Shown: piece after piece, positions 3,726 to 23,383 of the stretch | Numbering within the stretch: position 1 is the stretch's first letter | Layout of the letters: each line of letters begins with the position of its first letter | Source: a virus | Virus record (IMG/VR): IMGVR_UViG_3300012920_000120 | Location: 1-35,153 of that record | Direction: 5' to 3' (one strand) | DNA length: 35,153 bases | Made by a program: the position numbers and the translations under genes | The notes under the pieces: model-generated | What the model saw: only the letters and a program-made list of their open reading frames with translations | What the model was told of the DNA's origin: nothing | Database searches by the model: none

Positions 3726-3734
3726 GGTGATAGA

Positions 3735-6700
3735 TTGCCGATTATGTTACAGTCTAATCACGCTTTATTCTTTGATGGAGTTAGCGACAGCGTTATCATT
3801 CCCCAAGGAAGTTTTAGCAAATTGGGAAGAGACTATGACTCGGATAACAAAAGTTCGAGCGATATAGTTGATACGAGTTCTCAAGGTCACATTGGTAAAG
3901 GCGCTATAAGCGATGTCTTTGGTAAAGGACTTGCTATTGAGGCATGGGTTGTTCCCGACTGCGGCGGAGTGATATTAACAAAAGAAGGTCAGTTCAGATT
4001 ATCAATCGGTAGCGTAGATACTCCCGGGCCTGTTGAGTTTGAAGTCAATATAGAATCACCTGCTACTGGGAAAATGAAAGTGTTTGTTAGAACAGCATTA
4101 CCTGAAACAAATAACTTCGATGGTCATGTTTATCCCGTCACCACTTTTGGTGGGTTAGACGATTCATATAATCGCTTTGATGTTAGTAAAGATAAAGCAA
4201 CATCTCTCAGTCTTAATCAAAGACCATTATATCATATTGTTGCTGCTTTAAATAACGACTCAGCAGAAATATATGTTAACGGGGCTTTGATGTCTCAGCA
4301 AAGAATACCCAAAGGTGCACAGGTTCTTGAGAATGATTCTCATGTTTACATTGGTGGTAAAGGTGGTGAATTTAGAGGTGTCATAGAGAGCATACATATT
4401 TCCTCATCTTTCACTGATGAGATGGTAACTCGCAACCCTGCTTTGGTAACTGAAAAAACAATTTCACTATTTAGATTTGAAGAGCCTGTTTCAACCTTTG
4501 ACACCGTATACACCATTAACAGTATTGATTCTACATACAGCGATTCAGGGCTTACTGAGAATGACCTTACTGCTATCACCATACCCACTGCTGATGCTCA
4601 GTCTTTGGCTAATTTGTTGACTGGTAAAACTGTAACAGATTATGTAGATTTTACAGTCTCACCTTATTCTACTGGTAACTATTCAGTCATTGATAGGTTT
4701 ACTACACCCGGCACTACTAACAAAAGAAGCATACCTCATGTGCCGTATAATCTCTTAATTAATCCCGGCTCTATTAATCAAGATACCAAAAAACCAAATG
4801 GAAAACCACCTGAGCGTGTAAGGCTTCATAGAATTAATGTCACAACAGGTGAGATGTTAGTATCGAGTATTCACTTAGACTTTGCCAATTCAACAAATGG
4901 AGATGGATTAAGACCGATACTACACAGCACTCATACTTCTGCTAACGGTGCTAACTCTTTTGTTGTTATAGCATCAGATTATTTGATAGAAAACGGCACA
5001 GGTCGCCCCTATCAACCCCCTCACTTATCCACTCAACTTATTGATAGAACAGGGCAGATGTTGATTGATGAAGGTGATTTTGAGCAACATGCTCTAGTAT
5101 ATTCTAGCAGAATGGCTACTACAGCGAATAGCCCTGATAACCCATTCAAAGTTACTTGGCCCGCAGACATTGACGAACTGTTCCAAGTAGGTCACTCGGG
5201 TAGACATACTCTAAATCATGTTGAAGGGCATCACTATCTTAGAACAATGCCTCGTGCTAATGACGAAGCGCTAGACCAACAAGCGGGTAATTCAGACATT
5301 CTGACTATAATGTATGATGAAACAGCGAAAGGTATAGACAAACTATTTCCTATAAACAGTAAAGTAGATTACTATAGAGAAATTGCTCATTTTGAAGTCA
5401 TTGATGTAGTTAACTCTAGTCCTGTTCATGAAATAGTAACCAATGGTTTGACTGGAGGAAGTAAGAAACTAATATCCATAGGTGGCACAAAAGTCAATGC
5501 AACTCCGTTCAATCCTTTACCGTTTGCTCTCAAAGGCCCAGTTCCTATTGATGTAAATAATGTTGATGCTGATTTAAATAAGTTCCATTTACATCCTTCT
5601 AGTAAAAGTAGAGTGGCCTTACTTAGCGTTCCTACCCTTGCTAGTCGTGGTATCGCACCTTATGTAGAGGTTCATTACAACGCTATAGATTTCTCCGGGG
5701 CATCTATGAATAAAACAACCCCTATGTTGATGGTAGAGAAAACTGTTCCTGCTTCTAATCTACAAGTAGGCGGCGCATATATTGTAGATGATATAGCAAC
5801 TGATGTTGCTGCTGGTAATGCAACACTGTTTGCACCCGGTGGTTATATTGATGTTGGTAAAACAATAAACGGTAATTTGGGTAATGTTGGCTTTAGCCAC
5901 TCTTTAGTTGGTGATAATAGCGAAGGGTTTGAGGCCGATGTAGAGTTAGATGAGAGATTAACCCCTCAAAATTTTACAGCGACTACTACAACAGGTAACA
6001 CTACTCCACAAAATATTCTTGCTTCTCATACAACAAAAGCCGAACACGACTCAGTATTTCATAAACTATTCTTAGAAAGAACTGAAATTGAAAGTGATGT
6101 TAGTAAAACTGTAGAGTTTTCAAGACAGACACCCACCACAGTTCACGGTAGTCCATCGGCAGGTCAATTCGATGTAGGTATAACTTCTTCAGCGTCGTCA
6201 ATACATGAAATGTTTGATATTATTGATAATTTACAAATAGGACACTTACAAGGTATTACTCACCGTTTCTTTATTCAACCTTCAGACCGAAGAAGAACTA
6301 ATCAGTTACAACACATATTCTCAAAACAAGACAGGAACGAAGATGCTAATGCTGCCATAATCTTATTCTTAATGAATAGGTCTAAACTTCGTAGTGTAGA
6401 ACAGATAGAAAACGATGATGGTAGGTTTACTACCATATCAGCCATAGGACTCACAGATGTGGCTGCTACTAGAAGTGTTAATGAGTTAGCATCAGGTAGT
6501 CCTGATTCTCATGTAGTAAAGGAAATAGACCCTAATGCCCCAGTAGTAAGTGTAACTCTTGGTGGCGTGGGTCAAGGAGGTTTTGATACTAAGCCATCTT
6601 TTGACCGCAGCACATTAGCCAACCTACCTTACAGTTCTCGAAGAGGTTTTTCTTGTCTAGCAACTAGAATTAGAGTAGATAGAAACCCAACTAATAACTT

Positions 6701-9700
6701 TCAATTTATCGAGGTAACCCCGTTAAACAACTCTTCTCCTGATTTGAGAAGTTGGGGAACTTACCCATTCCCAAAAGAGGGCCGAATATATTTGAAAAAC
6801 GGCGCTAGTGCAAAGTATTCTAGTAAAACCGGAAGTTGTTTTATATTCACAGATTCTACTTTAGAAACTCGTAATTTTTTACTACCTAATGGTGGAGTAG
6901 TAGCCACTTTTCAAGATTGGGTTGCATCTAGTGGATTAAATGCTGGTGTTGCTAGTCTTACAGGAACTGCTGCTGATGTATTTCCTCTAGGTGAAGTTCT
7001 TATGGGAGATGGTAATTTCTTTGTAGAAAATTTACAAACTGACGGTAGCACTGTAAACGATAGAATGTTCCAATCATTGGATAATGTTTCGCACGATTAT
7101 CAATTAGGAACACAATTTGCATCAACTAGAGCGCTTGTAGAGATACCGTTGTTTAGAGGACAATTTTTCGCTGATAAGACTAAAGGCGTTTATCCTTCTC
7201 CTGATAACTCTTTGAAACTACACATAGACCCAACTATGACTGCACACACATGGAATCCTTCGCCAGTTGGTAGACGATTTCAAGACATCCCTCCTTCTGA
7301 TAGAAGTGCGTTTAATGCTTATGCTAAAAGTGCATTAAGCAATAATAGAACAAACCAAGCATCTATCACACACTTTACTACAACTCCTAATAATTATCGA
7401 ATAACTGTTAGTAATTTAAAAATATTCCCGCCTGTTAAACAAAACACTTTCCTATATCAACACGCTTCCAATGTGACAGCATACAGAAGAGCATTTTTAC
7501 CTTCAGGCGAATGGTGTATCTACGACAACAACCCTGAAGTAGACGGTTTTCTTCGGATTCCAATTGCTACTTCTTTCTATTCAGAAAACTTTGTTAGTGA
7601 AATGAGCGAGGCAATAGGATTACCACTTTTAATTGGTAACTCTATTGAGTCAGAAGTATTAGTTCCTCTAAAGGGCGATGTTCTAAATAAAGCATCGGAA
7701 ATTGAAAACAGGTCTGAGTATTACCACGATGCCGCTAGTGTTAAAACTCAGGGTGGTAATGTAGATTATGGACTCCGACAATATGTTAGCGCTGTTGAAT
7801 TTAAAGCAGGGCCAATGTCTAATCCACATGCCGCTAAGGTAAAATCGGGTAGAGCCAGTGGTGAGATTCTAAGAGTAACGCCTGTATTGGGCGGCGGTTC
7901 TACATATACTGGGTATACTATACTTGTAATGAGTGAAGAAGATGTAGACCTTTTTCCAAATGCATATCCTGAAGATTTGCTAAGTAGCACAAAGACATGG
8001 GATTCGGGTGAGGCGAATCATACTTTAGAAGTGACAGTTGGTGCAACAACTCATATATTTACTTATATCGGTCATACAAATAACATATTTAGTGGAATTA
8101 GCGGGAGTTCTACTGCTGGAACTTCTAGTATAGTGGTTAGAACTAAGGAGATTGGAGGTAGTGCACCTGCTTACTTATCCACCTTGACTGGTGAAACCGC
8201 CCTTCTAACGAAGTTTGGTTTTAATCAGCACTTTGATACTGATAAGGAAAATGTATTATTAAATCAAGCAAACAATCTTGCTAATACGGCAAGACCTGTT
8301 CATTATTCTCACCCTTGGGTTATAGGCGGTATTAGCGGTGGTAATCAAATACTAACTGTTACTTGTTCTAAAACAGAATTATTACAATCTAATACACTCA
8401 ACATGAACATCCAAGACGGGGATTATTTATATGCAGAAAATAATATTACTGCCAGCAACACTGCTGTTGCTTCTATCTTTTTAGGACAGGTAAGTAAGAT
8501 AGAAGAGGGAATGATACAAGACAATCCAAACGCTTCTGCCACCACGAGTAATAGAATTCATTTAGCATCAGCAATCCCGGCGGCTCAATTAACTGAAGTT
8601 AACGCTGCTTTGGCAGACGGCACACGAACTGTGTTCTTAAGAGTGGGCTGCCATGATATAATGAAAAATGATGATACTGCTTGCCTAAACAAATCTTGGA
8701 ATTATCCGTTTGCTCAAGGTGGACTAAGACATGGTGATACAATATGGATGAACATGACATACAACAATCCCCATGCTGTGCAAGGTTTATTCTGTAAGAG
8801 TAGAGGTGTGTTTAACGAAGCATTAGTTTACAAATTTTTCAATGGCGGAAAAGGTGACACTGCTCTTGAACCTAGAGATTCTATACCTGTTGAAAATTTC
8901 CTAATAGGAAATACTTGTTTAGAAACTGCTAACAACTTTGTGCAACATGTAAACAAAACAATTGAAATGAATTATGCTACTCTAGGTATCAGTAACCCAC
9001 CTACTATAGCATACTTAGACCCGTATTTGGCTACTGAAGGCCACGCTCGTGTGTTGTTATACGATGTAGCACATGACCGTGAGTTTATCGCATTCCAAGA
9101 TATACACATGCAGGTTCAAAGTTCCGCTAAGGCTTTAGAGATAGGGTATGAAAAATTTACTACAACTCCTAACTTTGCTGACGGAACTGATGAAGTGGAC
9201 TTAGGTAATTACTCTATTATCTATAACGGTGGCGCACAAAACCCATTCATAACTCAAGTTGATGTTGCTAATGGCTATCCCTCTCAAAACAAGTATATCA
9301 GAAGCACTCAACACTCTAATTTTATGGAGAGTGCTTACGCACACAATATAGCCAATAATATTTCTAACGAATTATTACAACCCGAAAGAGGTAGAGTTAG
9401 TGCTTTGAGTCATTTGGGAAGAGGTAACACAACTCTCAATCAAAGGGGAACGGGATATAGTAACGCAAATGGAGTGGCTACTACTTCTCTTACTGGTCAT
9501 GGCACAGGCTTGACTGTAAATATAGTCACAGTTCAGGGTGAGGTCGTTAGCGCTACTCCTGTGAATTCAGGTATTGAATACCTTAACACTACCAATGCTT
9601 TTGAATCTAAAGTTAGGATAAGTGGTGGTAACAATGACTGTGTGATGGCTGTAAGCACTACACATGCTAACCTGATAAGCACTACTACATCTATAGAACA

Positions 9701-12700
9701 AGCCATGGTTTACGGTAAAGCGCATGGTCACTTTGTTCAAACTGGTTATTATACAGGAGGGGTGAAGGGTGCTGAAAGAAGTATTGGAGACAGTATAGTT
9801 TCACGAACCAACAACGGTGTGGTTCTGTCTTACTTTGCAGAAAAAAGTCACATATTCACTAGAGATTTACTTCCAGTAGACAAAAAAATGCTAAAACAAT
9901 TAATTGACCACAAAATTGGTGATGGAGAAATATCACTAAGTCCTTTAGTTACTGGTGGTAGTGGTTATACCAATGGCACATTTTTCAATGTCATAACTAC
10001 TACTAACGGAGACGGTAAGGGAATGACTCTTGATGTAGTTATTAGCGGCGGGGCTGTTCAAAGCGCAGTAATAAATAGAGTTGGTGATAGTAATTACAAA
10101 AATGGAGATACTATTTTTGTAGGTGGGAGGACTCTAAATTCAGCAGATTATGTTTTAAATGTTAGCGGGGATGGCTTAGCGTCATTTACTCTTATTGGGG
10201 AAAGTAAACTTGAAGAAACCTCTACCTCTTTCGACACACCCGATGGAACTAGGGTTATACCTGCTTTCCTTGCTCTAAAGGGTATACGCTCAACTCCTTT
10301 GGATTTATCTAACCACCCCGAGGCTAACACTAGAGGTATTAACTTACTTCCTCAATGGACTCAAATGGATTTCGTTAGAAGATTATCTATAGACCTTGGT
10401 GAAATTGCCATTAAAGAAGGTATAACTAACATAGAGGCTGCTGCGAATGAAGTAGTTAGGATGATAAATCAAGCAGCCGCTACTGGGGGTAAAACACATG
10501 CTGCTCAAAACAATAGACAATATCCTGTAGAAGTAGTAGGAGAATCAGATTTTGCTGTAACAGGTTCTACTTTTGACCCACCAGTTTGGTGGGATGAAGA
10601 GAAAGCCTTTGCTTCTCATGATAAAGGAACTCACATGGGTTACTTAAGAGCACACATTGGTCGTGTGGTAAAGGATGTTAACGGTGAAGAGGGTTTCTCC
10701 GTAGTAATCCACAGCACAGTTCCCGGTGCAACAGGTCGTAACTTCGCTGTGTGGTTAGATAATAGTAAAGGTCAAGCACCATACAAACCTGAATTTTTGA
10801 TAGGTCATGGTGGTCGGTTCAGAACCTTTTGGTGTTTACCTGATGAATTAACAGGAGAGAATATGCACCCAGCACCAATGCCGCTTAATAAACACGGTAG
10901 ACCTTTCGCTCCTATTACATCTCTTAGGCAATTTACACAGTCTGATGAAAATACAGATATCGCATCATCAACTGCTGATTTCGCATCCAATCTTTCTGAT
11001 ACTGTCGAGGCAAAAGAAAGAGCAATTTCTGCTGTGACTGGTAGCGGGCAAAGTCACAATACAGTAAACGGTGAATCTTTTGAGACTGAAGGATTCAACG
11101 CTTCTCTTGTCGAAGGATTGAGAACGGGAACTTCTGCTGTGGGTAGAATTAACTTTGGTGGTTTAGTCGAGGCTGGTATTCCCGGTTTTGCACCTGATGC
11201 TGGTAAATGGGGTTTTGGTAGAAAAGGCGATACTAGGTTTATGAACGATTACGGCATAGTGACAAAAGTAGGTCAAACTAACCCACCATCAACTTACACA
11301 GGTCATGTTCCTAATACAGATATAGTTTCCGAAAAAATAGGAAATACGCCTATTTACGGCTTTAAGTTTGACGACCATAGAGGTGTATCTCACGGTATAA
11401 GATATATCTACAAAAACATGGGTGATAAATTCACTCTTGAAAACACAAAAGTTCCAAAAACTCTTGAGAATGAAATAGTTATTTATTTTAATCATAAAGA
11501 TTGCGCTCAAGGTGGGTTTACCATAGGTAGACACATGCATGGAATAAGTGAGCCGACTGGTCGTTTCCCAGCCACACCTGATAACGCTTCTCTTGCTAAT
11601 TGGCAAGGTAACCTTTGGAGAGGCGCTAGCGCCCCTAATGCGGCGTATAACAGTGATATTGTATATCATAAATCAGCATCAACTCTTTCTGTAACATTTT
11701 ATCACCCTTATGACAATACTGGCAGTCCACCAAGTATTGACCATCCTGATATATTGGGTTACATGGGTTTCCCTGCAACTAATGGGGTAATACATGTATC
11801 AGACCCATACAATTCAATGGGTGTAGCGACGATTGTATTGGGTGGCTCGGGGTATACCATTAATCAAACTGGTGCTGCTGCTACTGCTAAGGATAGTAAC
11901 AACAACGAACTAAATGTTTCTATCAACACAAATGGTAGCGGTAGTGTTACTGCTGTGACTATAACTTCATTAGGTGCTGGTAATTACGCTAACGGCGATA
12001 CATTTACTATAACTGGTATTGGTGGTAGCAACGCAACATTTGTTCTGTCTAATTCTTTAGCCGGTAGTTGGGGTAACATGTTTAGTTACACTCATAGAAC
12101 TAGATTAAACGCAACTTCAGCCACACATGTATTTCATGGTGTTACAGCAGACACATTTATTTCTAATCATTGTATTCATACACATGATAATATTAACCCA
12201 CGAATTTCTCTTGGAACTTTTGTAGTTGGTGAGACTACACAAGCAACTTCTGCATTAATATCATCAACAGCAAATTGGACTACTTTAGTAACCGACGAAC
12301 TTATGGCGGAGGTAACTGCTTTTGCGATTAATTTAGAAAATCCAAACATAGAGGAGGGAGTGTCTTTTGACTGCACTGAAATGTATGCTTCTGATGGTAG
12401 AACATTTGGAGAGTGGGGTATAACTCCTGAGTCAATTAAAATTAGAGCATACAACACTAAAAACAACATAACCCCGATATCAGAATTTTTTACAGCAAGT
12501 GTGTCTCGAGATATGGGTATTAAAGCAGCCCATCTTGAATTTGGTGAAATCCCAAGAATAACCCCTGAATTAGAAATTCAAGGCACAGCAGTAAGCACAT
12601 ATCAATTACCATCTAATTCTTTGATAAAAGAAGGAAGAGGTATAGAGTGTGGTTATATACCAAATACTATCTTACAAATTACTTCAAAGGGTAAAGGAAC

Positions 12701-15700
12701 TAATACTAACACTGCTACTCCTGTCCTAGTAGATTCAGATAATATACCCGTAGACACCTCAACTTGGGCTAAAAACCTAAGTGGCGAAAACTTTACAGAA
12801 TCTAGTGGAGATTTAATTTTACCAAATTGTGACAACCCTACTCTAAAAATGGTTACTGTAGATACTACACAAGCCATGCAATCACACTCGCATAGCAATC
12901 TTTGGTATTTCTGTAAACTATCAGGAAGAGAACAGGCTGTGTTCCATTATGAAAACGGTCAAACATTTGATTATCCTAGAGTTAATTCTTTTGGTAATAA
13001 GACAAAGATTGCGTATGGGAGCGAAACTGCTATTGCTGAAAGTGATGGTCAAAGTGGGGCTGGTAATGACCCGGCTGTATTCTTTGCACGAATAACAGAT
13101 ACTAATGTAGTGAGTGAAAACTGGCCTAGTAGCCCAGTTGGTGGTGACATAGTTATTCAAAGATATGCTGATAAAAGAGCATACTTGTTTGCTGGTAAAA
13201 GGTCACTTGGTAGTGTTCACTCTATACCTGTTATACACTTTACTGGCGCTAGAGATAGTCCTGATAATTATGTGCCGTTATATTTTGGTGGTGGGTTTAC
13301 AGGTGCTACTATAGACATAAACGATGGCACTAATAATGACTATGCTGAGCATAATACACATCACTACGCTAACGGCCCAACTGGTTCTGCTGGTATACAA
13401 AATGCTAATGAAATATTATCTTCCTTCTCTACACTAGACTGTAACGCTATCATGGCGTTCTTCCCTGCTACTGCTTTACTAAATCAAAACCGTGGGTCAA
13501 TTAATCCACCTGTATACAACAAGAACAACATACTATCACCTGATTTAAAACGAGGAACACATATACCAAGCAATATATTCCCCGATGCTGCTCCATATAC
13601 TGCTGGAGTTCACATGCAAGTGCCTTCACCTATGGTGTTGAGATTTGCTCATCCTACAGCAAGATATCAAGACCATAAGAATGACATCGAAAACAAAACG
13701 ACATTTATCATATTTGGGCCGGGTCAGGCATTCCCACTTACTAGAGATTCAGCCTCACCCGCTAATCAATTTGAACCACATCCCGGCGCTGCTATAACTG
13801 CTGGTAATACTTGGAGTAAAGTTCCAGAAAAATCCAGTGATGGTAATTTCTTGCCTAATCACATAGCAAACTTCAACGGAGATTTTTTGCCGGAGCAATC
13901 ATCTTTCCAAACTACACATAGAGATTTCCATTACAAAACAACTTTGAATTGGGAATCATCTTTAGGTATACCATTAGCAGGGTCAACCGTTAGACACCGA
14001 CCTGAGAACGGTAGAAACTACGGTAGTCAATTTAGCACAAAAGCATTTGAAAATTCCCCTCTTGGTTTCAATGCAATAGCAGCAGAACTTTACGCTGTTG
14101 CTCAACCGAATAGACACGCTGTGTTTGTTCCTAGTGGTATGGTTAAGAATTCAGATTTATGTTGGCACATGGATAATGGTAATCATCCCGGTGGTTCTTG
14201 GATGGATAATCAAATCACTATGAATCCACCTATGCAAACTGGTGATGCAAGAGTAGCAAAAACAGCAGCGACTATCATAAACCCTACAGCGTTTAGAGTA
14301 GCCGGAACATTAGCAAAGCGAATGCTTTACTCTAACGATAACTCATCTTCACCTAACTTTGAGGCTGAAACATTAGTTGCTGACGATGTAGACCACGAAT
14401 ACATTGTAGTGGATGCTACACGCTGTCAAAACGGTGAAGAGTTAGCATGTGTCTTGGGTGCTGCTATCAATACATTCCCCGGTAAAGGTGCACTTAAAGC
14501 GATAGGTGGCACATTTATGCCGTCTATGGGTAACTCTTCTCGGCAAGACCGCTACGGCTGGATTCAGGCTGAGTCTACTTCCATACCTAGTGGTGCTGGT
14601 AATACATTGGCTAATGTATATGGAAACGGAACAGTTAACGGAGCAACTGCTCATGCTGATGTAACCAGTTTAGGATATTCTAATAGATTGGCTACATTAC
14701 AACCGGCTACAAGAAATTCTACTGTTACAACTGCTACCTTTACAGGAACAGTTACTTCCGGTAGCGCTACTATCACTGGGGTTACAGTTCCAGCGACTAT
14801 GAAAGTTGGTCAATCTATCACCGGAACAGGATTGGCAGCACACACTGTTGTTACAGGTTTTGATAGTTTCGCTAACACTGTCACTGTTAATCCATCGGCC
14901 ACATCAACCCCGGGAAGCCCTGTGACATTAACACTAACAACAAGCACACTTGGAAATTTACTAAACACTCTTACTGTTCTCCAAGGAGATTGTTTCATTG
15001 ATTTAAGAATAACCAGTGCTCAGGCTACCAGTCAAAAAACAGTAGCAGATAGAATACCAGCGAGTGGATGGCTTAGAACCGAGCCTATGCACAACTACTC
15101 TTATGCACTTTCTAGTAACTCTAGTCTTAAAACTCCAGCGTGGGCTTGTTATACCAGTAGAGCGTTCTATACCCATAACACTGACTTATACTGTAGATTC
15201 TTCTTAGGAGTAAATAAAATAACAGGGTCTAAATTATTTGAAGATGGTGATGTATGGCATCAATATGCAAGGACTACCTCGATGGTTGATAGTAATGGTA
15301 ACGGTCAATACGACGGTTTGACCACACCACACCCTGCTCCTACTGCTGGTGATACAGTTTGGATATGGTCGAAGTCTCCTGTTAACTATGTTGATAACTC
15401 TACTAATTTCATAGGTAGTAGATTCCTTGGTTATGGTATAGGTGCTGTTCATTTCAACGGATTAGTTGATGCAATAGATAGAACCAAACCAATAGGTGCA
15501 GTTGGTTGGCATGGTGAGCGATACTCATACCTTAACTCACTTAATGTTGGGGGTGGTTATGCTGCGGGATTAGGGGCATGGCATACCTCACTTGGTTTCT
15601 CTCCATACGGTAATTTCTCGTCTTGTGTTTCTGTATTATCTCACTTACCACAAACAACACCTCTACCTAATAGTCCTGAAAGCGCACCTCCTACAGATTA

Positions 15701-18700
15701 TAGGGATGACGGATTAAACACTTTACCATCAAAAGACAGAATGGAAGGTGACAATACCGCATTTGCTGCTCATGGTTATGGTGGGTATGCTATGAATAGA
15801 ATTGAAGCATCACAATATCACATTCCTCCGATAATGAATACTATGGCTAACTTACCAAAAGAGTTATTTAGCGCTCAAGGAACATACGCACGCTCTTTAC
15901 TTGTAGTAGCCCATGAAGGTGAATTAAGTTTAGTAGCAAAGAAAGATAGAGACGGTTACATCACTACTGGTGACTACTTGATTAGGGGAGGAACTACCGA
16001 ATGGGATGAAAGATTCCATGCTGCTGACCGATTTATCGCTCCGGCAAACGCAGGGCCGAATGTAGAGGCTTTAATCGCAGATAATACAGCACCGCCTACT
16101 CAACTTACAGAAAATGGGCCACATAGTTTGTCTTTATTTAGTAACCCCCTTCTTCCAGTGTATCCCACCACTCCTTACACTTTACACGGAGCGATTACAG
16201 CAGATACATCTTTATCAAACGCTGAGCCTTGTTTAAATGAGATAGGTGACTTATTTACCGACCTTAACAAAAGCATAGGAACTGCGTTGAATGAGGATGC
16301 CACCTTGGGTATCCGTCATATTACCTCCGATTATATCAATAGTTTTGACACCGATATAAAAGCAGCATTAACTGATATTGGTGGTGGCTCAGCAGCGAAA
16401 TTTTGGGTAGGCGACATTAGCGGGTATGATGTTATGGCTAGAAGCCCTCACAAAAACTTCAGCACCGAACATGTAGTTTGGAAGCGTATGGATGGGGGTA
16501 GTCTAACTTTACCTGCTTCTAACGCTCGTGGTCTTGGAGCAGTGCCTTGGGTCACAAGAGTCACAGCAGACAGTGATGGTAACAAAACAATTGCTAATTT
16601 AACTGGTGAAAAAGTATTAGGAAATATTAGATTTTCTTTTGAGTCAACTAACTCCGCTATGATGCCAATTTTACAAGCACAAGAAATCGCTCATCCTCAA
16701 CTAGCAGCAGGTAACCCGATAACACTGGCTAATGTTCTTACTATACCAAATGAAGAATTACAATTTGAAGATATTAATGTTGTAGATGACACAGGGCAAT
16801 TACATGTTGTTCAAGGTGGCTCTCCACTAGGTATTATAATTAGAGCATATAAACCAGCATCGGAAAGATTGTCTACTGGTTTAGAACCAGCAATTGCTAA
16901 TTCAGGTATAGAACCTAACTTAGAGATTCAACTACCAAACCCTGACGATATACCGGGTAACATTCTAGTTAGAAGCGGTTTTGACCCTGTGCAAGCATAT
17001 CAGCACGAAACTATGGGTGATGGTGGTATGTTACCTTTGTTTGACAATAATCTAAAACAGTTATTCGTTAATGAACACAAAGCACCTAGACTACAACCTA
17101 CTATGAACGAGGTGGGATGGGAACACATTTCACAAGACAAAAACTTCCCTGAGTCTACTCGTGATGGATGGAGCGCTGCTACGAACGACAAACCTATACA
17201 AACATCATACGAATTACACGATAGGGCGCTTTACTTCCATGTCACTAAGATGGGTCACAGTCATACTGAAAAGTTCCCCGCTACCTACACACACGCTGGT
17301 GGTGTAGAGAGCCAAACACTTGGTTTTGTTAGTTTAGTAGACGCAACTTTGACTGCTGACGCTACTATCAATCCATCAATTTTTGCTGCTGAGTTTGGAA
17401 CAAAAGAAGTATCTGATAATCGTAGATTCCTTCGCATAGCAAACGCAGCAGGTAAAAGCGTTGTTGCTTCATACACTGGTATTAGTGGGGCTACATTCAC
17501 TGGGGTGGTTGGGGATATCAACACAACTCAATTCCTTGCTGACAATGCTAATGCTACTCTTACAATTACCCCGTCATACTATGTGCCAGCAGGTAGCACT
17601 CGTATATTTGCATCACGCCGTTTGCGTGACCACGCTGAAGTAAGCGGTAGTAGTCCTGACATGGCTCACACAATGTATTTTGACGGCGACTCTCAAACTA
17701 CAATTCACTCACGATATAGTAAACCGCAACTAACACCAATGCCGATACCTCGTATGGGTCATCACTTTGTTAACGCTACCATGCCTATGATGCCGGGTCA
17801 CTGGGCACATCCTTCTTATCAAGGAATTTACAGTAGAGCAAATAGCAACGAAACTGTAACTTCGCAAGAAGAAGAGTTAACATTGTTAGAAGAACATGTA
17901 GGCGCTACAGGGTCATCTTTCACCGGAACTCAACTCCTCAGTGGCATAATAAATGAGTTATTCCCACTTAATCCATATCTTATGGTTGGTAGCCTAACAG
18001 CGAATCCTTCAGGGCCGAGTGACATACACGGCGGTGCATTCACTCTAATGTTTGAAACTAAAATTAAGTATGATGGTTACGGTGTTCTTGCTTCAAAGGG
18101 TGAGGCTGGTAACATAAACAAAGCCGGAGGACATTCTATTGTGCTTGAGGCTGGGGGTAACTATACTCAGTCTAATCATTTCCCTGACCCTGCTGAAGTA
18201 GGTGCATATCAAATAATTATTCAACCAAATTTATCAGAACAACAGTTTACTGGCTTCCACAGAAACAATGCAACTACTACCGCTTTACCAAACGCTAGTG
18301 ACATGAATTTAACAAGCCAACAAATTAACTTGGTTATAGGTATAAAGTATGACGAAGAGAGGCATGCATCTCTAACTAACGCTGCAAATGTGGGTGGTGT
18401 GACCCTCATACTAGCCGAGGCTACACTCGCTGATGTAAGGGGCTGTGAAGTATTTATCAACGAAGTTATCCTTGACCATGACCCTGACCATGGTAGTCAG
18501 TTTACTAATATACCACCAATGCTGCTTTATAATCCACTTGGAGTTCAAGGTAGCGAAAGTCCTCACTTTACTCGTAGAGGTCATCCTTATCACCCACCTA
18601 TAGGTGATATTACTTTCAAAGACGCTACACCGGGGCATACAACTAGCATTCCTTGGTGGAGTATAATGCACCAAAATACTCCTGTTAATGCTTCTGCTGT

Positions 18701-21700
18701 AGGGTTTAGACATCTAGCGATATATCGTATTGATAATTATTATCAGTTCTGTAGAGCAAGTTATGGTTCAATAGCAGCACAGATAACTCTCGCTGGATAT
18801 CCAAGTATCAGCCCTGATATTTACTCAACTATAATGGAAAATATCAGTTTAACACCAACATGTAAGGTTACTGCTAATATATCAGGAAACATAATACAAG
18901 TTGATGATGCTTCTTTATTCCCTGAAACCCCATACTACGGACAAAAATTGTTAATTCATAACCCGGCCACAAAAGAAACAACAGCGATTGATTATAGCAG
19001 TAGACAGGGAGTTACTCAAGGTGCTTCTACAATGAATGAGCCTGATATATTCCATCTTCCGTCTAGTGTTAGCACAAAAATTGGTATGACAATAAGCCTA
19101 AGTAAACCATACTCAACAAAACCAATGAGTGAATTATTTACAGTTGGTAGTGAATCTATCATTACAAAGAACTTACCACAATTACTGTCAGGCACAAGAG
19201 ATACTAACAGTCTTACTTCCGGTGACGCTTACCTATGTGCTTGGAGTCCTAACTTGGGTAGACCACATACTTTCTACTCAGATGCAAGTAGAACATGGAT
19301 TACTAATGGTGTTAATCATACTGCTGATAGGGCAATTAACAAAGCAGCATACAATAGCATGCCAAAACACTTCGAGACTATTCACTATCACGAAGTAAAT
19401 TATGCAGCCAGTCATGGGCCTTTTGCATTAATGATGAAATCACCTCAACCACCTATAAGATTAGATGGGATTGTGATAGGTATTACAAATACAGGGCCGT
19501 ATGAAATTAGAATGAATGTTGCTAATCAATCACTTATCACTGCCCCATTTGGTCAAACCATTTATTTTAATGGAGAAGTTGTAGGTAAAGTTACTGGAAT
19601 TGCTGCTAATACTCCACTCAATGGAGCATGCACAATTACATTTGCACACGAGTTGTTACACACAGCCGGTAATATTATTGGTGGAACTTTATTCATTGGT
19701 GGAGACGGAACTGCTCTTACTGGTAGTGAGATACACGCATTGACAGGCTATTCAGCCCAAGGTAGTAACTCTACTATGTATACTAACTTTTGGCCTTGTG
19801 GTAGTAGAGGCGGGCCTTTAGTAAGCCGTTTAGATGGTTATGCTGCTACAACAGCCGCATGGCACATACCACAGAATTATGGTCACGACGCTGGTAGACA
19901 TTGGATTGACCAAGATGATGATGGGTCTTATGCTGTAGCAAGCGGTATAACAGACAGCAATTTAGTCTCGACAAGAACATATCCGTTTGGTTACCGATTC
20001 GGTCTAAGACAACCGTGGAACAGACCTCAATGGGGTCACTATGGTATGCGAGCATATCAGGAGTTAAGCAACCACGGTAGCGCTACACAGATTACCACAG
20101 GATATAGAGCAGGGCCACTGGTTCATTATGAAAGGCAAGGGTCGAACAGTTGGGTTTATGAAGGTGGTGACTCTTTACAAAGTAACACAACACTTGACAC
20201 AATATACAACGGTATACTAGAAAGACAAACAACTGCTGCTGGTATGTTAAATGCAGATAAATATGAATGGCAAGTTCGATACAGCGAAGGCCGAAGAATG
20301 ACTAGAGGTTTTGGTTGCGCTGTTAGAACCATAAGAAACCCTAACACTGTAATTAGAGATTGGTGGGGTGATTCTGCTGGTAAGAATCTAAAGAAGTATG
20401 GAGAGGCTGTAAAATACTACTTAGTAGATTGGTGGGGTAATACTCGTGGTGAAGATGTAAGAAGAATGCCTGTTCGTGGTTTTGGTGTAAACCCATGTTG
20501 GGATGCTGGAGATGCATACGAATATGATAGAACTAACCATAGAACTCCATACGACAGAATATGGAATGGTGGGAAACCTATCTTTAATCTAAAAGGAGTT
20601 GCTAATTTATCCACTGGTGCTGTTCTAGCCTCACCTACATCTACTATCCCTAGATTTGGTGGTAGAAAGAATACTGGTAACAATAATACAGACACTACGC
20701 TAGTAGATGTTTTTGCTCCTACTAATGCCATGCGTGTAGGCGACATGGGTAATGGTCGTGGTGTTAGATTCCCAACTCAGTTTAACGAAGATATACTCGT
20801 TGAGTTAGATGCTGTATATGAAAACTCAGGTATCGTCTTATCAAGCAGCACTGCTGAGCCTACATTTGGTAAAGGATATCTAAGACCGAGAGACGATGTG
20901 TTACAGCCTACTGAGATTGTTAGAGGTATTAGTAGAAGATTGGAAGTTGATGAAGATGGTCTGTTAAAGCCCGAAGCAACTGTGAGCGATAGAGTGGAAA
21001 GCATTAGTGGTAGTTCTGTGCACAAAGATGCTGTATCAAGGTCGTCTCCAAGAGTAGGTATAGAAGGTCAAACAATGCAGTCATTAACTGGTGCTAATAC
21101 TAACATGGTTGCTATAAACTCAGAAGCACACAGTCTACACACTAACAGGGGTGTAGGTCAGCGTGTAATACTACATGGTGGTATGCAATCAGGTTCTCAA
21201 ACTCTAGGTCACTATGACTTAACTACTCTATCTTTCGCTGCTCAACCCCATGGTGGTGTAATGAGATTTAGTCATACTTCTAATTTCAAACCAATGGGCG
21301 GCACTTATGTTTTAGAAAGTCGTAGTTTCGCAAGCCCATTTGATGATACAGGGTGGGGTAGGGCTGGTTTAACTGGTAGTCAGAAAACAAGTAATCCGTA
21401 TCAAATAACTAATTCTGTCTCAGCACAAACAAACAAAACTGATGATTCTATCAAGTTCTTAGTGCGACCAATAAGACTACTTGATAATCAACATATAGCA
21501 GTGTTTAGACCACAACTCGCCTTACACAGTGGTAGTAAACAAGTAGGTAGCACTGCTTACACAGCCACTGCTGGTGGTAAATATGGTATGTTTACTTACG
21601 AAACAACAACTGGTAGAGCAAGTAGTGGATTCTACATGCGTGCTACTGACCCCGATGCAAATGCTCCTTACCAACCTGTATACCTAGTAGAAGATTCTAG

Positions 21701-21959
21701 TGATACTGTGCCTACTTCAAAAGGCCCGAAGTTGTTAGGAACTGAAGTTGCTGGGTATGATAAAACAAATTTAAAATCAAATGTAACTAGATTAATTATC
21801 AGCGAAAATAGCCTACAGCATTTTAGAAGTGATGCACCAAGAAGAGACGGTGTAGATAAAGACTATACTGTAAAGCCTAGATTTAGTCAAGCATTACACG
21901 GTAAAGGGCACAAAGGTGATGTTGATTATAGTAAAAGAACACATGGAGGGAATAGTTAA
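3735..21959 (+). CDS. Giant 6,074-aa virion/adhesin-like protein with LamG domains
   Basis: A single uninterrupted frame of 18.2 kb, over half the window. Residues about 60-225 form a LamG/concanavalin-A-like domain (AIEAWVVPDCGGVILTKEG, then YHIVAALNNDSAEIYVNG, then VYIGGKGGEFRGVIESIHIS). A second, weaker LamG-like segment lies at about 4765-4936 (FTLMFETKIKYDGYGVLASKG). Three beta motifs of the G[ST]GY type, common in phage fibres, start near residues 1904, 2073 and 2702. Residues about 3667-3735 resemble a Thr/Val-rich fibre repeat (GSATITGVTVPATMKVGQSI). Near residue 5543 a DWWG unit is duplicated. Most of the rest is beta-rich with many Asn, Thr, Gly and His and no membrane helix. The TTG at 3735 sits four bases after GAGGTGA; the ATG at 3744 is the alternative. 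Position between tape measure and hub suggests a tail-tip or host-binding protein. A cell-surface lectin-like role is inferred. Confidence 0.8.
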   Translation: MPIMLQSNHALFFDGVSDSVIIPQGSFSKLGRDYDSDNKSSSDIVDTSSQGHIGKGAISDVFGKGLAIEAWVVPDCGGVILTKEGQFRLSIGSVDTPGPVEFEVNIESPATGKMKVFVRTALPETNNFDGHVYPVTTFGGLDDSYNRFDVSKDKATSLSLNQRPLYHIVAALNNDSAEIYVNGALMSQQRIPKGAQVLENDSHVYIGGKGGEFRGVIESIHISSSFTDEMVTRNPALVTEKTISLFRFEEPVSTFDTVYTINSIDSTYSDSGLTENDLTAITIPTADAQSLANLLTGKTVTDYVDFTVSPYSTGNYSVIDRFTTPGTTNKRSIPHVPYNLLINPGSINQDTKKPNGKPPERVRLHRINVTTGEMLVSSIHLDFANSTNGDGLRPILHSTHTSANGANSFVVIASDYLIENGTGRPYQPPHLSTQLIDRTGQMLIDEGDFEQHALVYSSRMATTANSPDNPFKVTWPADIDELFQVGHSGRHTLNHVEGHHYLRTMPRANDEALDQQAGNSDILTIMYDETAKGIDKLFPINSKVDYYREIAHFEVIDVVNSSPVHEIVTNGLTGGSKKLISIGGTKVNATPFNPLPFALKGPVPIDVNNVDADLNKFHLHPSSKSRVALLSVPTLASRGIAPYVEVHYNAIDFSGASMNKTTPMLMVEKTVPASNLQVGGAYIVDDIATDVAAGNATLFAPGGYIDVGKTINGNLGNVGFSHSLVGDNSEGFEADVELDERLTPQNFTATTTTGNTTPQNILASHTTKAEHDSVFHKLFLERTEIESDVSKTVEFSRQTPTTVHGSPSAGQFDVGITSSASSIHEMFDIIDNLQIGHLQGITHRFFIQPSDRRRTNQLQHIFSKQDRNEDANAAIILFLMNRSKLRSVEQIENDDGRFTTISAIGLTDVAATRSVNELASGSPDSHVVKEIDPNAPVVSVTLGGVGQGGFDTKPSFDRSTLANLPYSSRRGFSCLATRIRVDRNPTNNFQFIEVTPLNNSSPDLRSWGTYPFPKEGRIYLKNGASAKYSSKTGSCFIFTDSTLETRNFLLPNGGVVATFQDWVASSGLNAGVASLTGTAADVFPLGEVLMGDGNFFVENLQTDGSTVNDRMFQSLDNVSHDYQLGTQFASTRALVEIPLFRGQFFADKTKGVYPSPDNSLKLHIDPTMTAHTWNPSPVGRRFQDIPPSDRSAFNAYAKSALSNNRTNQASITHFTTTPNNYRITVSNLKIFPPVKQNTFLYQHASNVTAYRRAFLPSGEWCIYDNNPEVDGFLRIPIATSFYSENFVSEMSEAIGLPLLIGNSIESEVLVPLKGDVLNKASEIENRSEYYHDAASVKTQGGNVDYGLRQYVSAVEFKAGPMSNPHAAKVKSGRASGEILRVTPVLGGGSTYTGYTILVMSEEDVDLFPNAYPEDLLSSTKTWDSGEANHTLEVTVGATTHIFTYIGHTNNIFSGISGSSTAGTSSIVVRTKEIGGSAPAYLSTLTGETALLTKFGFNQHFDTDKENVLLNQANNLANTARPVHYSHPWVIGGISGGNQILTVTCSKTELLQSNTLNMNIQDGDYLYAENNITASNTAVASIFLGQVSKIEEGMIQDNPNASATTSNRIHLASAIPAAQLTEVNAALADGTRTVFLRVGCHDIMKNDDTACLNKSWNYPFAQGGLRHGDTIWMNMTYNNPHAVQGLFCKSRGVFNEALVYKFFNGGKGDTALEPRDSIPVENFLIGNTCLETANNFVQHVNKTIEMNYATLGISNPPTIAYLDPYLATEGHARVLLYDVAHDREFIAFQDIHMQVQSSAKALEIGYEKFTTTPNFADGTDEVDLGNYSIIYNGGAQNPFITQVDVANGYPSQNKYIRSTQHSNFMESAYAHNIANNISNELLQPERGRVSALSHLGRGNTTLNQRGTGYSNANGVATTSLTGHGTGLTVNIVTVQGEVVSATPVNSGIEYLNTTNAFESKVRISGGNNDCVMAVSTTHANLISTTTSIEQAMVYGKAHGHFVQTGYYTGGVKGAERSIGDSIVSRTNNGVVLSYFAEKSHIFTRDLLPVDKKMLKQLIDHKIGDGEISLSPLVTGGSGYTNGTFFNVITTTNGDGKGMTLDVVISGGAVQSAVINRVGDSNYKNGDTIFVGGRTLNSADYVLNVSGDGLASFTLIGESKLEETSTSFDTPDGTRVIPAFLALKGIRSTPLDLSNHPEANTRGINLLPQWTQMDFVRRLSIDLGEIAIKEGITNIEAAANEVVRMINQAAATGGKTHAAQNNRQYPVEVVGESDFAVTGSTFDPPVWWDEEKAFASHDKGTHMGYLRAHIGRVVKDVNGEEGFSVVIHSTVPGATGRNFAVWLDNSKGQAPYKPEFLIGHGGRFRTFWCLPDELTGENMHPAPMPLNKHGRPFAPITSLRQFTQSDENTDIASSTADFASNLSDTVEAKERAISAVTGSGQSHNTVNGESFETEGFNASLVEGLRTGTSAVGRINFGGLVEAGIPGFAPDAGKWGFGRKGDTRFMNDYGIVTKVGQTNPPSTYTGHVPNTDIVSEKIGNTPIYGFKFDDHRGVSHGIRYIYKNMGDKFTLENTKVPKTLENEIVIYFNHKDCAQGGFTIGRHMHGISEPTGRFPATPDNASLANWQGNLWRGASAPNAAYNSDIVYHKSASTLSVTFYHPYDNTGSPPSIDHPDILGYMGFPATNGVIHVSDPYNSMGVATIVLGGSGYTINQTGAAATAKDSNNNELNVSINTNGSGSVTAVTITSLGAGNYANGDTFTITGIGGSNATFVLSNSLAGSWGNMFSYTHRTRLNATSATHVFHGVTADTFISNHCIHTHDNINPRISLGTFVVGETTQATSALISSTANWTTLVTDELMAEVTAFAINLENPNIEEGVSFDCTEMYASDGRTFGEWGITPESIKIRAYNTKNNITPISEFFTASVSRDMGIKAAHLEFGEIPRITPELEIQGTAVSTYQLPSNSLIKEGRGIECGYIPNTILQITSKGKGTNTNTATPVLVDSDNIPVDTSTWAKNLSGENFTESSGDLILPNCDNPTLKMVTVDTTQAMQSHSHSNLWYFCKLSGREQAVFHYENGQTFDYPRVNSFGNKTKIAYGSETAIAESDGQSGAGNDPAVFFARITDTNVVSENWPSSPVGGDIVIQRYADKRAYLFAGKRSLGSVHSIPVIHFTGARDSPDNYVPLYFGGGFTGATIDINDGTNNDYAEHNTHHYANGPTGSAGIQNANEILSSFSTLDCNAIMAFFPATALLNQNRGSINPPVYNKNNILSPDLKRGTHIPSNIFPDAAPYTAGVHMQVPSPMVLRFAHPTARYQDHKNDIENKTTFIIFGPGQAFPLTRDSASPANQFEPHPGAAITAGNTWSKVPEKSSDGNFLPNHIANFNGDFLPEQSSFQTTHRDFHYKTTLNWESSLGIPLAGSTVRHRPENGRNYGSQFSTKAFENSPLGFNAIAAELYAVAQPNRHAVFVPSGMVKNSDLCWHMDNGNHPGGSWMDNQITMNPPMQTGDARVAKTAATIINPTAFRVAGTLAKRMLYSNDNSSSPNFEAETLVADDVDHEYIVVDATRCQNGEELACVLGAAINTFPGKGALKAIGGTFMPSMGNSSRQDRYGWIQAESTSIPSGAGNTLANVYGNGTVNGATAHADVTSLGYSNRLATLQPATRNSTVTTATFTGTVTSGSATITGVTVPATMKVGQSITGTGLAAHTVVTGFDSFANTVTVNPSATSTPGSPVTLTLTTSTLGNLLNTLTVLQGDCFIDLRITSAQATSQKTVADRIPASGWLRTEPMHNYSYALSSNSSLKTPAWACYTSRAFYTHNTDLYCRFFLGVNKITGSKLFEDGDVWHQYARTTSMVDSNGNGQYDGLTTPHPAPTAGDTVWIWSKSPVNYVDNSTNFIGSRFLGYGIGAVHFNGLVDAIDRTKPIGAVGWHGERYSYLNSLNVGGGYAAGLGAWHTSLGFSPYGNFSSCVSVLSHLPQTTPLPNSPESAPPTDYRDDGLNTLPSKDRMEGDNTAFAAHGYGGYAMNRIEASQYHIPPIMNTMANLPKELFSAQGTYARSLLVVAHEGELSLVAKKDRDGYITTGDYLIRGGTTEWDERFHAADRFIAPANAGPNVEALIADNTAPPTQLTENGPHSLSLFSNPLLPVYPTTPYTLHGAITADTSLSNAEPCLNEIGDLFTDLNKSIGTALNEDATLGIRHITSDYINSFDTDIKAALTDIGGGSAAKFWVGDISGYDVMARSPHKNFSTEHVVWKRMDGGSLTLPASNARGLGAVPWVTRVTADSDGNKTIANLTGEKVLGNIRFSFESTNSAMMPILQAQEIAHPQLAAGNPITLANVLTIPNEELQFEDINVVDDTGQLHVVQGGSPLGIIIRAYKPASERLSTGLEPAIANSGIEPNLEIQLPNPDDIPGNILVRSGFDPVQAYQHETMGDGGMLPLFDNNLKQLFVNEHKAPRLQPTMNEVGWEHISQDKNFPESTRDGWSAATNDKPIQTSYELHDRALYFHVTKMGHSHTEKFPATYTHAGGVESQTLGFVSLVDATLTADATINPSIFAAEFGTKEVSDNRRFLRIANAAGKSVVASYTGISGATFTGVVGDINTTQFLADNANATLTITPSYYVPAGSTRIFASRRLRDHAEVSGSSPDMAHTMYFDGDSQTTIHSRYSKPQLTPMPIPRMGHHFVNATMPMMPGHWAHPSYQGIYSRANSNETVTSQEEELTLLEEHVGATGSSFTGTQLLSGIINELFPLNPYLMVGSLTANPSGPSDIHGGAFTLMFETKIKYDGYGVLASKGEAGNINKAGGHSIVLEAGGNYTQSNHFPDPAEVGAYQIIIQPNLSEQQFTGFHRNNATTTALPNASDMNLTSQQINLVIGIKYDEERHASLTNAANVGGVTLILAEATLADVRGCEVFINEVILDHDPDHGSQFTNIPPMLLYNPLGVQGSESPHFTRRGHPYHPPIGDITFKDATPGHTTSIPWWSIMHQNTPVNASAVGFRHLAIYRIDNYYQFCRASYGSIAAQITLAGYPSISPDIYSTIMENISLTPTCKVTANISGNIIQVDDASLFPETPYYGQKLLIHNPATKETTAIDYSSRQGVTQGASTMNEPDIFHLPSSVSTKIGMTISLSKPYSTKPMSELFTVGSESIITKNLPQLLSGTRDTNSLTSGDAYLCAWSPNLGRPHTFYSDASRTWITNGVNHTADRAINKAAYNSMPKHFETIHYHEVNYAASHGPFALMMKSPQPPIRLDGIVIGITNTGPYEIRMNVANQSLITAPFGQTIYFNGEVVGKVTGIAANTPLNGACTITFAHELLHTAGNIIGGTLFIGGDGTALTGSEIHALTGYSAQGSNSTMYTNFWPCGSRGGPLVSRLDGYAATTAAWHIPQNYGHDAGRHWIDQDDDGSYAVASGITDSNLVSTRTYPFGYRFGLRQPWNRPQWGHYGMRAYQELSNHGSATQITTGYRAGPLVHYERQGSNSWVYEGGDSLQSNTTLDTIYNGILERQTTAAGMLNADKYEWQVRYSEGRRMTRGFGCAVRTIRNPNTVIRDWWGDSAGKNLKKYGEAVKYYLVDWWGNTRGEDVRRMPVRGFGVNPCWDAGDAYEYDRTNHRTPYDRIWNGGKPIFNLKGVANLSTGAVLASPTSTIPRFGGRKNTGNNNTDTTLVDVFAPTNAMRVGDMGNGRGVRFPTQFNEDILVELDAVYENSGIVLSSSTAEPTFGKGYLRPRDDVLQPTEIVRGISRRLEVDEDGLLKPEATVSDRVESISGSSVHKDAVSRSSPRVGIEGQTMQSLTGANTNMVAINSEAHSLHTNRGVGQRVILHGGMQSGSQTLGHYDLTTLSFAAQPHGGVMRFSHTSNFKPMGGTYVLESRSFASPFDDTGWGRAGLTGSQKTSNPYQITNSVSAQTNKTDDSIKFLVRPIRLLDNQHIAVFRPQLALHSGSKQVGSTAYTATAGGKYGMFTYETTTGRASSGFYMRATDPDANAPYQPVYLVEDSSDTVPTSKGPKLLGTEVAGYDKTNLKSNVTRLIISENSLQHFRSDAPRRDGVDKDYTVKPRFSQALHGKGHKGDVDYSKRTHGGNS
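20358..20470 (+). repeat. Duplicated DWWG motif unit in giant protein
   Basis: GATTGGTGGGGT occurs at 20358-20369 and again 69 bp later, encoding RDWWGDSAGKNLKK and VDWWGNTRGEDVRR. Both are followed by basic helices, giving a 23-residue tandem unit near residue 5543 of the giant protein. Confidence 0.7.
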
Positions 21960-23383
21960 TGCCGTTAATAACTTCCCATAGATTAGGTGCGGTAAACAAT
22001 CTAACGATTATGAAGTCTGTTCGTAAACCTGTTTTCGTAGATAATGCACTACATCTAGGTGAATATACAAGCGATGCTAATTTACAAAATAAGGTTACTG
22101 TGAAGCAAAAGAAAACTGCTACATACGGAGTAGCAACCGGGCGTGCTTATGACATAACTGAATTAGAAAATTCCATGATTATCAAACACCCCCAAACTCA
22201 TGGTAGTAAATACCAAGGCTCAATCTTCTACATGGACTCTACTATAACAGATGATAACGCTGACAACAAACCTGTTTTGTTCTACGCAAAAGGACTTACT
22301 CATCAAAGATTAAGACCATCTAATGTAATGAATAGTGGCACAGGCACAACTTTTGCTGTTAAGAATACAAAATCTAAGTCGTTTATTGATTTAGGTTTTG
22401 AGTCAACTCAAGCACACATAGCACAACCAATTGATGCTGGTTTAAGAACTACAGACCTAGCAATTCGTATTAGTAGAGACATAGCAGACACTTTGACATC
22501 AGTGAGTATATCTTTACCGTTGAGTGCTGCTAATTCTAAAATTGACAGGCGGAGACATAGTAATGTTTTCTTAGGCACTGATTTCCATGGTATAACATTG
22601 ATAGATGCCCTACGCTTTATTAGTAGACATGATGGTAGGGTAGTGCATTTCGATAGGTTTGGTAACTTATTGTATGTTCCATTCCAATTTGAAGAAGGTA
22701 GTAGAGTGGTCAATGCTGCTGCTAGAATTGGTGACAAAATAAATAATCCAATAGAAAACATTTCCAATCGTGTTATAGTAGAAGGTTTACCTACAGCAGT
22801 AAATGACACAGCCTTTGCTGAAGTTAATGACTCCGAAAAACAATCAGGTTCTAATGGTGAGATATTAGAAGAGCCACAAGTTGTAGGTGATTTTACTGTT
22901 CGTAGTAACGAACAGGCAAGAGAGGTAGGTCGAAACATATTGAAAGCCAACTCAGTGATGAAAGGTAACTTGACTAGCAACGGACATCCTAACTCTTGGG
23001 ATTTAAGACCGGGTATGATAATAGAGTATGAAGGTAGAAGAAAAATACTGGTAGAGGTTAGACACAATTTAGCAAACAATACTGCTGATTTAGTATTCTT
23101 AAGTGTAGAGACTGGTGTAGAAGGAGTGTTACAAGGTATTCTCGATGGCACTAAAAATACAGGTAAACAACAGGATACCATACAACAAGTTATTGAAAAG
23201 AATTTAGCGTTCTTTGGTGATATAGAAATAGTATCCATTATCACTACAGAAAAGGTAATTCATGGCTTACCGGGGGATGGCTTCATTATAGGTAGAGGCA
23301 TGGGTAGAGGCGTGGTCGGAGTCACTAACGCTGAAACAATAGGTGGTAGTAAGTCTACTAGAATAATAGAGAGGGGTGAATAG
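21959..23383 (+). CDS. Baseplate hub-like tail protein (late control D/gp27-like)
   Basis: A 474-aa protein. The central part (about residues 205-400) reads like a tail hub: LIDALRFISRHDGRVVHFDRFG followed by YVPF, a segment NRVIVEGLP, an Ala/Arg helix (NEQAREVGRNILK), then HPNSWDLRPGMIIEYEGRRK and VRHNLANNTADL. This order (a V-x-V-x-G strand, a helix with repeated Ala, then LRPG-x-[IV]-x-[VIY] and an H-x-L strand) is seen in gpD/gp27-type hubs that join tube and tip. The C-terminal 60 residues are Gly-rich and probably flexible. The ATG overlaps the giant gene's stop (TAATG) and has GGAGGG upstream. The family call rests on pattern memory, so confidence is moderate. Confidence 0.6.
   Translation: MPLITSHRLGAVNNLTIMKSVRKPVFVDNALHLGEYTSDANLQNKVTVKQKKTATYGVATGRAYDITELENSMIIKHPQTHGSKYQGSIFYMDSTITDDNADNKPVLFYAKGLTHQRLRPSNVMNSGTGTTFAVKNTKSKSFIDLGFESTQAHIAQPIDAGLRTTDLAIRISRDIADTLTSVSISLPLSAANSKIDRRRHSNVFLGTDFHGITLIDALRFISRHDGRVVHFDRFGNLLYVPFQFEEGSRVVNAAARIGDKINNPIENISNRVIVEGLPTAVNDTAFAEVNDSEKQSGSNGEILEEPQVVGDFTVRSNEQAREVGRNILKANSVMKGNLTSNGHPNSWDLRPGMIIEYEGRRKILVEVRHNLANNTADLVFLSVETGVEGVLQGILDGTKNTGKQQDTIQQVIEKNLAFFGDIEIVSIITTEKVIHGLPGDGFIIGRGMGRGVVGVTNAETIGGSKSTRIIERGE

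Follow-up and report, generated by a model that had tools for sequence, protein, structure and literature searches.

Magroviruses are among the most abundant viruses of the ocean, and to our knowledge no virus of the Poseidoniales has been cultured. Their tail genes can be compared with those of HVTV-1, a haloarchaeal tailed virus of a related family (Druskaviridae) and the nearest isolated relative in this comparison. Like the stretch of DNA analyzed here (the window, 35,153 nucleotides), HVTV-1 has a tail assembly chaperone, a tape measure and baseplate-region genes in the same order. Unlike the window, it has no giant gene, and the largest gene at that place encodes 524 aa. The window holds a tail operon with products of 128 aa and 92 aa (small tail genes), 437 aa (tape measure), 415 aa, 6,074 aa (the giant), 474 aa (hub-like), 114 aa and 785 aa, in that order. 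The features of this region are the following.

1168..2481, plus strand: 437-aa tape measure protein (E 1.2e-16 to a PHROG tape measure family; its length is kept while identity falls)
2478..3725, plus strand: conserved 415-aa protein between the tape measure and the giant, syntenic in 134 loci
3735..21959, plus strand: giant open reading frame, 6,074 codons, 657 kDa, no internal stops
21959..23383, plus strand: putative hub-like tail protein, 474 aa
23384..23728, plus strand: conserved baseplate-region protein, 114 aa, syntenic in 147 loci at 50% identity or more
23730..26087, plus strand: fibre-like protein, 785 aa, variable in sequence and length among close relatives
27657..29132, minus strand: TCP-1/cpn60 chaperonin, at which the oppositely oriented replication module begins (Pfam Cpn60_TCP1, E 1.4e-116)

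The genes around the giant were the same in 116-162 of the loci fetched, and its start, stop and neighbors are kept across relatives. Of the 75 hub loci that had enough upstream sequence, 73 have the giant immediately before the hub; in some lineages the giant's stop and the hub's start are 0.4-2.9 kb apart, with other sequence, perhaps extra genes, between them. The initial annotation had placed the giant between the tape measure and the hub, which is nearly right: a hub-like gene follows directly, but the 415-aa gene (2478-3725) separates the giant from the tape measure. Pfam and PHROG searches gave no family match for the 415-aa protein, and its position suggests a distal-tail-like role. 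The 474-aa gene is called hub-like from its position and a weak match to a PHROG tail protein (E 0.0064); a faint similarity between this hub and HVTV1_133 (hhalign E 0.011, probability 4%) was not counted. Beyond the fibre gene are two genes that no more than 3 of the fetched loci share. The product of one (26084-26902) has 272 aa and includes a run of glycines; that of the other (26912-27418) has 168 aa and by eye the look of a SAM-binding fold, with no Pfam match.

On the other strand, the end of the window encodes two nucleases, ERCC4 and PD-(D/E)XK, along with the TCP-1/cpn60 chaperonin; with regard to the magrovirus profile, the 35-kb window itself holds only these three genes. The chaperonin appears thermosome-like by eye, and thermosome-type chaperonins mark clade 1 of the MGII viruses (PMC5332604). 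It is encoded within a few kb of the giant and is a candidate folding helper for the giant or other virion proteins. A relative of 107,203 bp (G005) shares the tail operon of the window. It encodes the replication and metabolic genes DNA_pol_B (3e-45), a PHROG clamp loader, Cpn60 and an HMGL-like (HMG-CoA-lyase-like) gene (2e-31), together with the morphogenesis genes Terminase_6C, Phage_portal, SU10_MCP (capsid) and Peptidase_S78. Thus, it has the PolB, clamp loader, chaperonin, HMG-CoA-lyase-like gene and genome size (~90-110 kb) expected of Magrovirales, as well as the terminase, portal, HK97-type capsid protein and prohead protease. The same gene profile has been published for magroviruses, the predicted viruses of Poseidoniales (PMC10768690, PMC12999244). 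Because the gene set of this relative agrees with the published profile, its gene content marks the window as a putative magrovirus (order Magrovirales, with archaea of the Poseidoniales/MGII as hosts). The structural half of the G005 genome contains a second large open reading frame, of 1,834 aa (L320:12433-17934, minus strand).

The uninterrupted 18.2-kb frame of 6,074 residues first reported at 3735-21959 matched the window sequence and its translations exactly. At the window's GC content, the probability of 6,074 consecutive stop-free codons arising by chance is ~1e-168. The start codon is TTG. Since homologues have ATG or GTG at the codon aligned with it, the sequence from there reading MPIMLQSNHALFFDGVSDS..., and since a ribosome-binding-like motif, GAGGTGA, precedes it, the TTG start is credible. 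The stop of the giant shares one base with the ATG of the hub-like gene (TAATG). Inspection of the sequence revealed no signal-peptide-like stretch at the N-terminus. The frame takes up 52% of the 35-kb fragment but ~17% of a genome of ~107 kb, which corrects the emphasis of the initial annotation.

An assembly artefact, which had been named as the finding that would overturn the proposal, is rejected because full-length homologues of 5,517-6,069 aa with 49-83% identity are present in 8 other contigs. In all, 59 complete frames were found in relatives, with lengths of 5,390-6,793 aa (median 5,616) and no internal stops; these include contigs with near-identical sequences and do not represent 59 independent lineages. 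The whole-gene dN/dS, measured in pairs of relatives, was 0.09-0.16, which likewise argues against an artefact and shows that the giant is under strong purifying selection. Searches with the N-terminus found relatives in at least 159 and at least 257 contigs, and searches with the C-terminal part in at least 296 and at least 254. In a survey anchored on the terminase, 27 contigs were 50 kb or longer; 26 of these carried at least one end of the giant, and 24 its N-terminus. The remaining contig (G101, 71 kb), which has neither end, extends 17 kb downstream of the terminase, whereas in complete relatives (e.g. G006) the giant begins ~24 kb downstream, so the contig ends too early to contain it. 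The presence of the giant is therefore near-universal among the related viruses that could be checked. Among 73 non-redundant sequences, 1,156 positions were more than 95% conserved, and these are mostly G, P, R, D, N and H. The giant is a feature of a conserved virus family and not the curiosity of one contig. No match to the giant, the hub, the 114-aa protein or one structural protein of G005 was found among the INPHARED phages.

The N-terminal part of the protein divides into two regions.

3735..4514, plus strand: predicted LamG/ConA-like jelly-roll lectin domain, aa 1-260 (Pfam Laminin_G_3; AlphaFold and Foldseek)
4515..5969, plus strand: beta-rich region with a predicted ordered fold, aa 261-745 (AlphaFold)

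Pfam Laminin_G_3 matched the N-terminus with E 6.5e-6 and 26.8 bits, just below the curated cut-off of 27.6, and it matched 19 of 24 relatives, the best with E 1.1e-7. The AlphaFold model of aa 1-745, built from 64 sequences, was beta-rich, with a mean pLDDT of 75.7 and a pTM of 0.78. Foldseek matched this model to the LamG region of PAPP-A in the PDB (E 3e-8) and to LamG proteins of marine and archaeal viruses in BFVD (E 3e-9). The receptor-binding jelly rolls of clostridial neurotoxins are also listed, which is due to the common lectin fold and implies no closer relation. The best PDB matches span 260-275 aligned columns, that is, the LamG part only, and for aa 261-745 the PDB fold search gave no named relative. 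Sequence profile, predicted model and fold match together show a LamG/ConA jelly roll at the N-terminus, in agreement with the LamG-like start proposed at first, and the domain is predicted to bind sugar. No hub protein was among the 50 best PDB matches for aa 1-745. This result, together with the jelly-roll N-terminus, argues against membership of the giant in the tail-associated lysin/hub family (gp27-, Tal-like).

In the rest of the protein, conserved blocks alternate with variable segments (aa ~1408-1646, 1881-2159, 2690-3140, 3601-3800 and 5240-5315). The regions that stand out are listed here.

7956..8672, plus strand: hypervariable insert region, aa ~1408-1646, of low conservation and with segments replaced in relatives
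9375..10211, plus strand: variable insert region with two beta-module copies, aa ~1881-2159, mostly missing in several relatives
10635..10934, plus strand: most strictly conserved block, aa 2301-2400, in which 54 of 100 positions are more than 95% conserved among 60 non-redundant sequences
11802..12224, plus strand: variable insert with the third beta-module copy, aa ~2690-2830, of low conservation and with replaced segments
14535..15134, plus strand: fastest-evolving segment, aa 3601-3800, with dN/dS of 0.25-0.59, absent from many relatives
17937..18629, plus strand: very conserved beta-patterned domain, aa 4735-4965 (from conservation)
18819..19184, plus strand: predicted small beta domain, aa ~5029-5150 (pLDDT mostly 70-85)
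19452..19739, plus strand: predicted small beta domain at an insertion site, aa ~5240-5335 (pLDDT ~70)
20082..21956, plus strand: conserved C-terminal core, aa 5450-6074, with the motifs DWWGNTRGEDVRR, DAGDAYEYDR and RVGDMGNGRG

Profiles of 50 overlapping segments, each compared with all the others, showed no internal repeats other than one beta module of ~60 aa, whose copies lie at aa ~1903-2002, 2070-2132 and 2699-2762. With three copies of a single module, internal repeats are rejected as the source of the protein's size. The second copy matched a PHROG baseplate wedge (E 1.2e-6) and a tail fibre (E 7.5e-5), and the module also matches PHROG virion structural proteins; the fibre-like beta motifs noticed initially thus correspond to this one module, seen three times. 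Relatives carry additional inserts at positions 746, 3938, 5539 and 5875. The alignments show that the variation of the giant takes the form of exchangeable inserts at fixed sites. In some relatives the insert at 5875, of 243 aa, is a Laminin_G_3 domain with a match (E 9.9e-16) to a family of virion structural proteins. An Exo_endo_phos_2 match in the insert of one relative was judged spurious, being below the cut-off (E 4.6e-6) and overlapping a LamG match. A second ConA/LamG-like domain suspected by eye at aa 4735-4965 was not supported: comparison with LamG and with the first domain gave hhalign probabilities below 1%, and there was no PDB sequence match.

Modeling of aa 4885-6074 as a single chain, a segment that starts inside a conserved domain, gave a mean pLDDT of 38 with 57 sequences and resolved only the two small beta domains. 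Foldseek returned nothing at E 0.001 or better for this model, and no significant match for the domain at aa ~5029-5150. A poor model of so conserved a region is compatible with a fold that would need other parts of the protein or partner chains, although it proves nothing. PDB profile searches with all three thirds of the giant gave no match, and its conserved core matched no known family in Pfam, PHROG or PDB profiles. As initially observed, most of the protein has no recognizable family: ~75-80% of it lacks a recognized domain.

To place the giant among its neighbors, its conservation can be set against that of the adjacent tail genes in six pairs of relatives. The identity of the giant was 83, 95, 96, 89, 69 and 84%, that of the hub 90, 98, 98, 93, 71 and 87%, and that of the 785-aa fibre 79, 81, 93, 69, 57 and 61%. 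The length of the fibre gene product ranges from 625 to 900 aa. By this measure the giant as a whole is almost as conserved as the hub, and the fibre is more variable. Because the identity of the giant tracks that of the hub, while that of the fibre is lower and its length varies, the giant behaves as a structural part of the tail tip would, with variation limited to local decorations, and the fibre is the better candidate for the main receptor-binding or host-range protein. Variability in sequence and length is the usual mark of a host-range determinant, as in the adhesins of haloarchaeal tailed viruses (PMC8651126).

On the basis of these observations, we consider it probable that the giant is a tail-tip or baseplate structural protein of magroviruses that carries sugar-binding domains on a scaffold. 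The evidence is its position in the tail operon, with a one-base overlap with the hub and the same order in more than 100 loci; its place upstream of the hub and its occurrence on nearly all terminase contigs, as counted above; the PHROG matches of the beta module and of the LamG insert to virion structural proteins; the purifying selection, the LamG fold, and a conservation near that of the hub and above that of the fibre; and the lack of a signal-peptide-like start. To this extent the initial view is supported, in which the giant is a virion protein from the tail region of a marine archaeal virus, exceptional in size and with a lectin-like N-terminal domain. A few copies of the giant (three or six, judging from general baseplate symmetry) would assemble at the tail tip, between the 415-aa protein proximal to the tape measure and the 474-aa hub. 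The scaffold would consist of the conserved core, most of which is non-repetitive, and the N-terminal lectin jelly roll and the small beta domains at fixed surface sites would make reversible contacts with host sugars. Specificity would then be decided by the neighboring, more variable 785-aa fibre.

On the other hand, the giant could itself be the main receptor-binding adhesin, with its lectin and inserted domains, and not the fibre, setting the host. The N-terminal LamG domain and the LamG inserts of relatives are in line with such a role, as are the hypervariable inserts at fixed sites and the dN/dS of up to 0.59 at aa 3601-3800. However, the giant as a whole is about as conserved as the hub, and the adjacent fibre is more variable in sequence and length, so we regard this explanation as unlikely. 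The major host-binding function proposed initially accordingly stands in part: host-facing variation may be present, confined to the exchangeable inserts, but the whole protein does not vary in the way the fibre does.

A second explanation, which we rate as similarly improbable, is that the giant is a polyprotein from which a virus protease releases several tail proteins, its size being that of the precursor. HVTV-1 has several ordinary-sized genes (151, 476, 279, 330 and 524 aa) from the tape measure to where the baseplate region ends, an S78 prohead protease is part of the magrovirus gene set, and the giant has many conserved blocks with variable linkers between them. However, the tail proteins of HVTV-1 match no third of the giant and have no detectable similarity to it, and an unsystematic look noticed no conserved, repeated cleavage signature.

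It is very unlikely that the giant is a cargo of the virion, ejected into the cell in the manner reported for giant polyproteins of some phage virions. Its size and the lack of a recognized family for most of it would fit, but the parts of it that can be recognized, a lectin and beta modules of fibre type, belong to the outside of the particle. No enzymatic domain was found by Pfam in aa 1-4060 of 24 members or over the full length of the window's protein, and none, such as an RNA polymerase, by Pfam and PHROGs, the C-terminal third being covered by the window's protein. Parts of the giant may nevertheless have non-structural roles, e.g. ejection into the cell, given the ~75-80% without a recognized domain. 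A length-ruler role, or the tail-shaft role that the initial annotation had suggested, draws some appeal from the location next to the tape measure but is scarcely credible, as the giant is beta-rich and not helical where folded, shows no resemblance to tube or sheath proteins, owes its range of 5,390-6,793 aa to exchangeable inserts, unlike a ruler, and is accompanied by a separate tape measure, which sets the shaft length and is itself of near-constant length (437-439 aa in near relatives, at identities from 83% down to 46%). In distant lineages the tape measure is shorter (~280 aa), and this difference suggests lineage-specific tail lengths.

A structural protein of the tail tip thus remains our preferred reading of the giant. 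A bolder and rather doubtful extension is that nearly the whole magrovirus tail tip has fused or evolved into one chain of ~650 kDa, a single-chain baseplate with plug-in host-binding domains that is conserved order-wide and is also the unrecognized viral source of the commonest architecture of archaeal huge proteins. About one-sixth of the genome is devoted to a protein that all magroviruses seemingly need, and its conserved core, with more than 1,100 near-invariant positions and no known family, is a structural target for understanding the attachment of archaeal tailed viruses.

Among the known systems, the similarity to phage proteins is limited. PHROGs 32294, 438 and 5342 (baseplate wedge and tail fibre, some with profiles of 2,400-3,300 aa) have the ~60-aa beta module in common with the giant (E 1.2e-6 to 1e-3), and the module alone, not the core. 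A homologue is already deposited as an unnamed viral protein: A0A1B1IU10 (BFVD/UniProt, the first of its fragments) matched the whole of aa 1-745 in Foldseek, with E 6.5e-81 and 49% identity. No paper describing the giant was found in a literature search that stopped short of the discovery papers PMC5434244 and PMC11706807, so that, as far as searched, the family is deposited and not described. A survey of magroviruses (PMC10160649) lists Laminin_G_3 among the auxiliary metabolic genes of four groups. The domain and the virus group are the same as here, and the domain of the giant is the N-terminus of a tail-operon protein; the giant may be the source of these calls. LamG matches in magroviruses are therefore better not counted as metabolic genes. 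In a survey of very long proteins (5,000 aa and above, viruses excluded), one N-terminal Laminin_G_3 domain was the commonest archaeal architecture, of a function that is not understood (PMC11573180). These proteins resemble the giant in size (at least 5,000 aa) and in their single N-terminal LamG domain, but they were reported as cellular, whereas two scans of the GTDB representative genomes gave 0 homologues of the giant family. Because of this result, and despite the striking likeness in size and architecture, we advance the link as a hypothesis: the archaeal proteins may come from binned viral contigs, or they may be unrelated to the giant. In this way, the giant offers a testable origin for the archaeal huge proteins.
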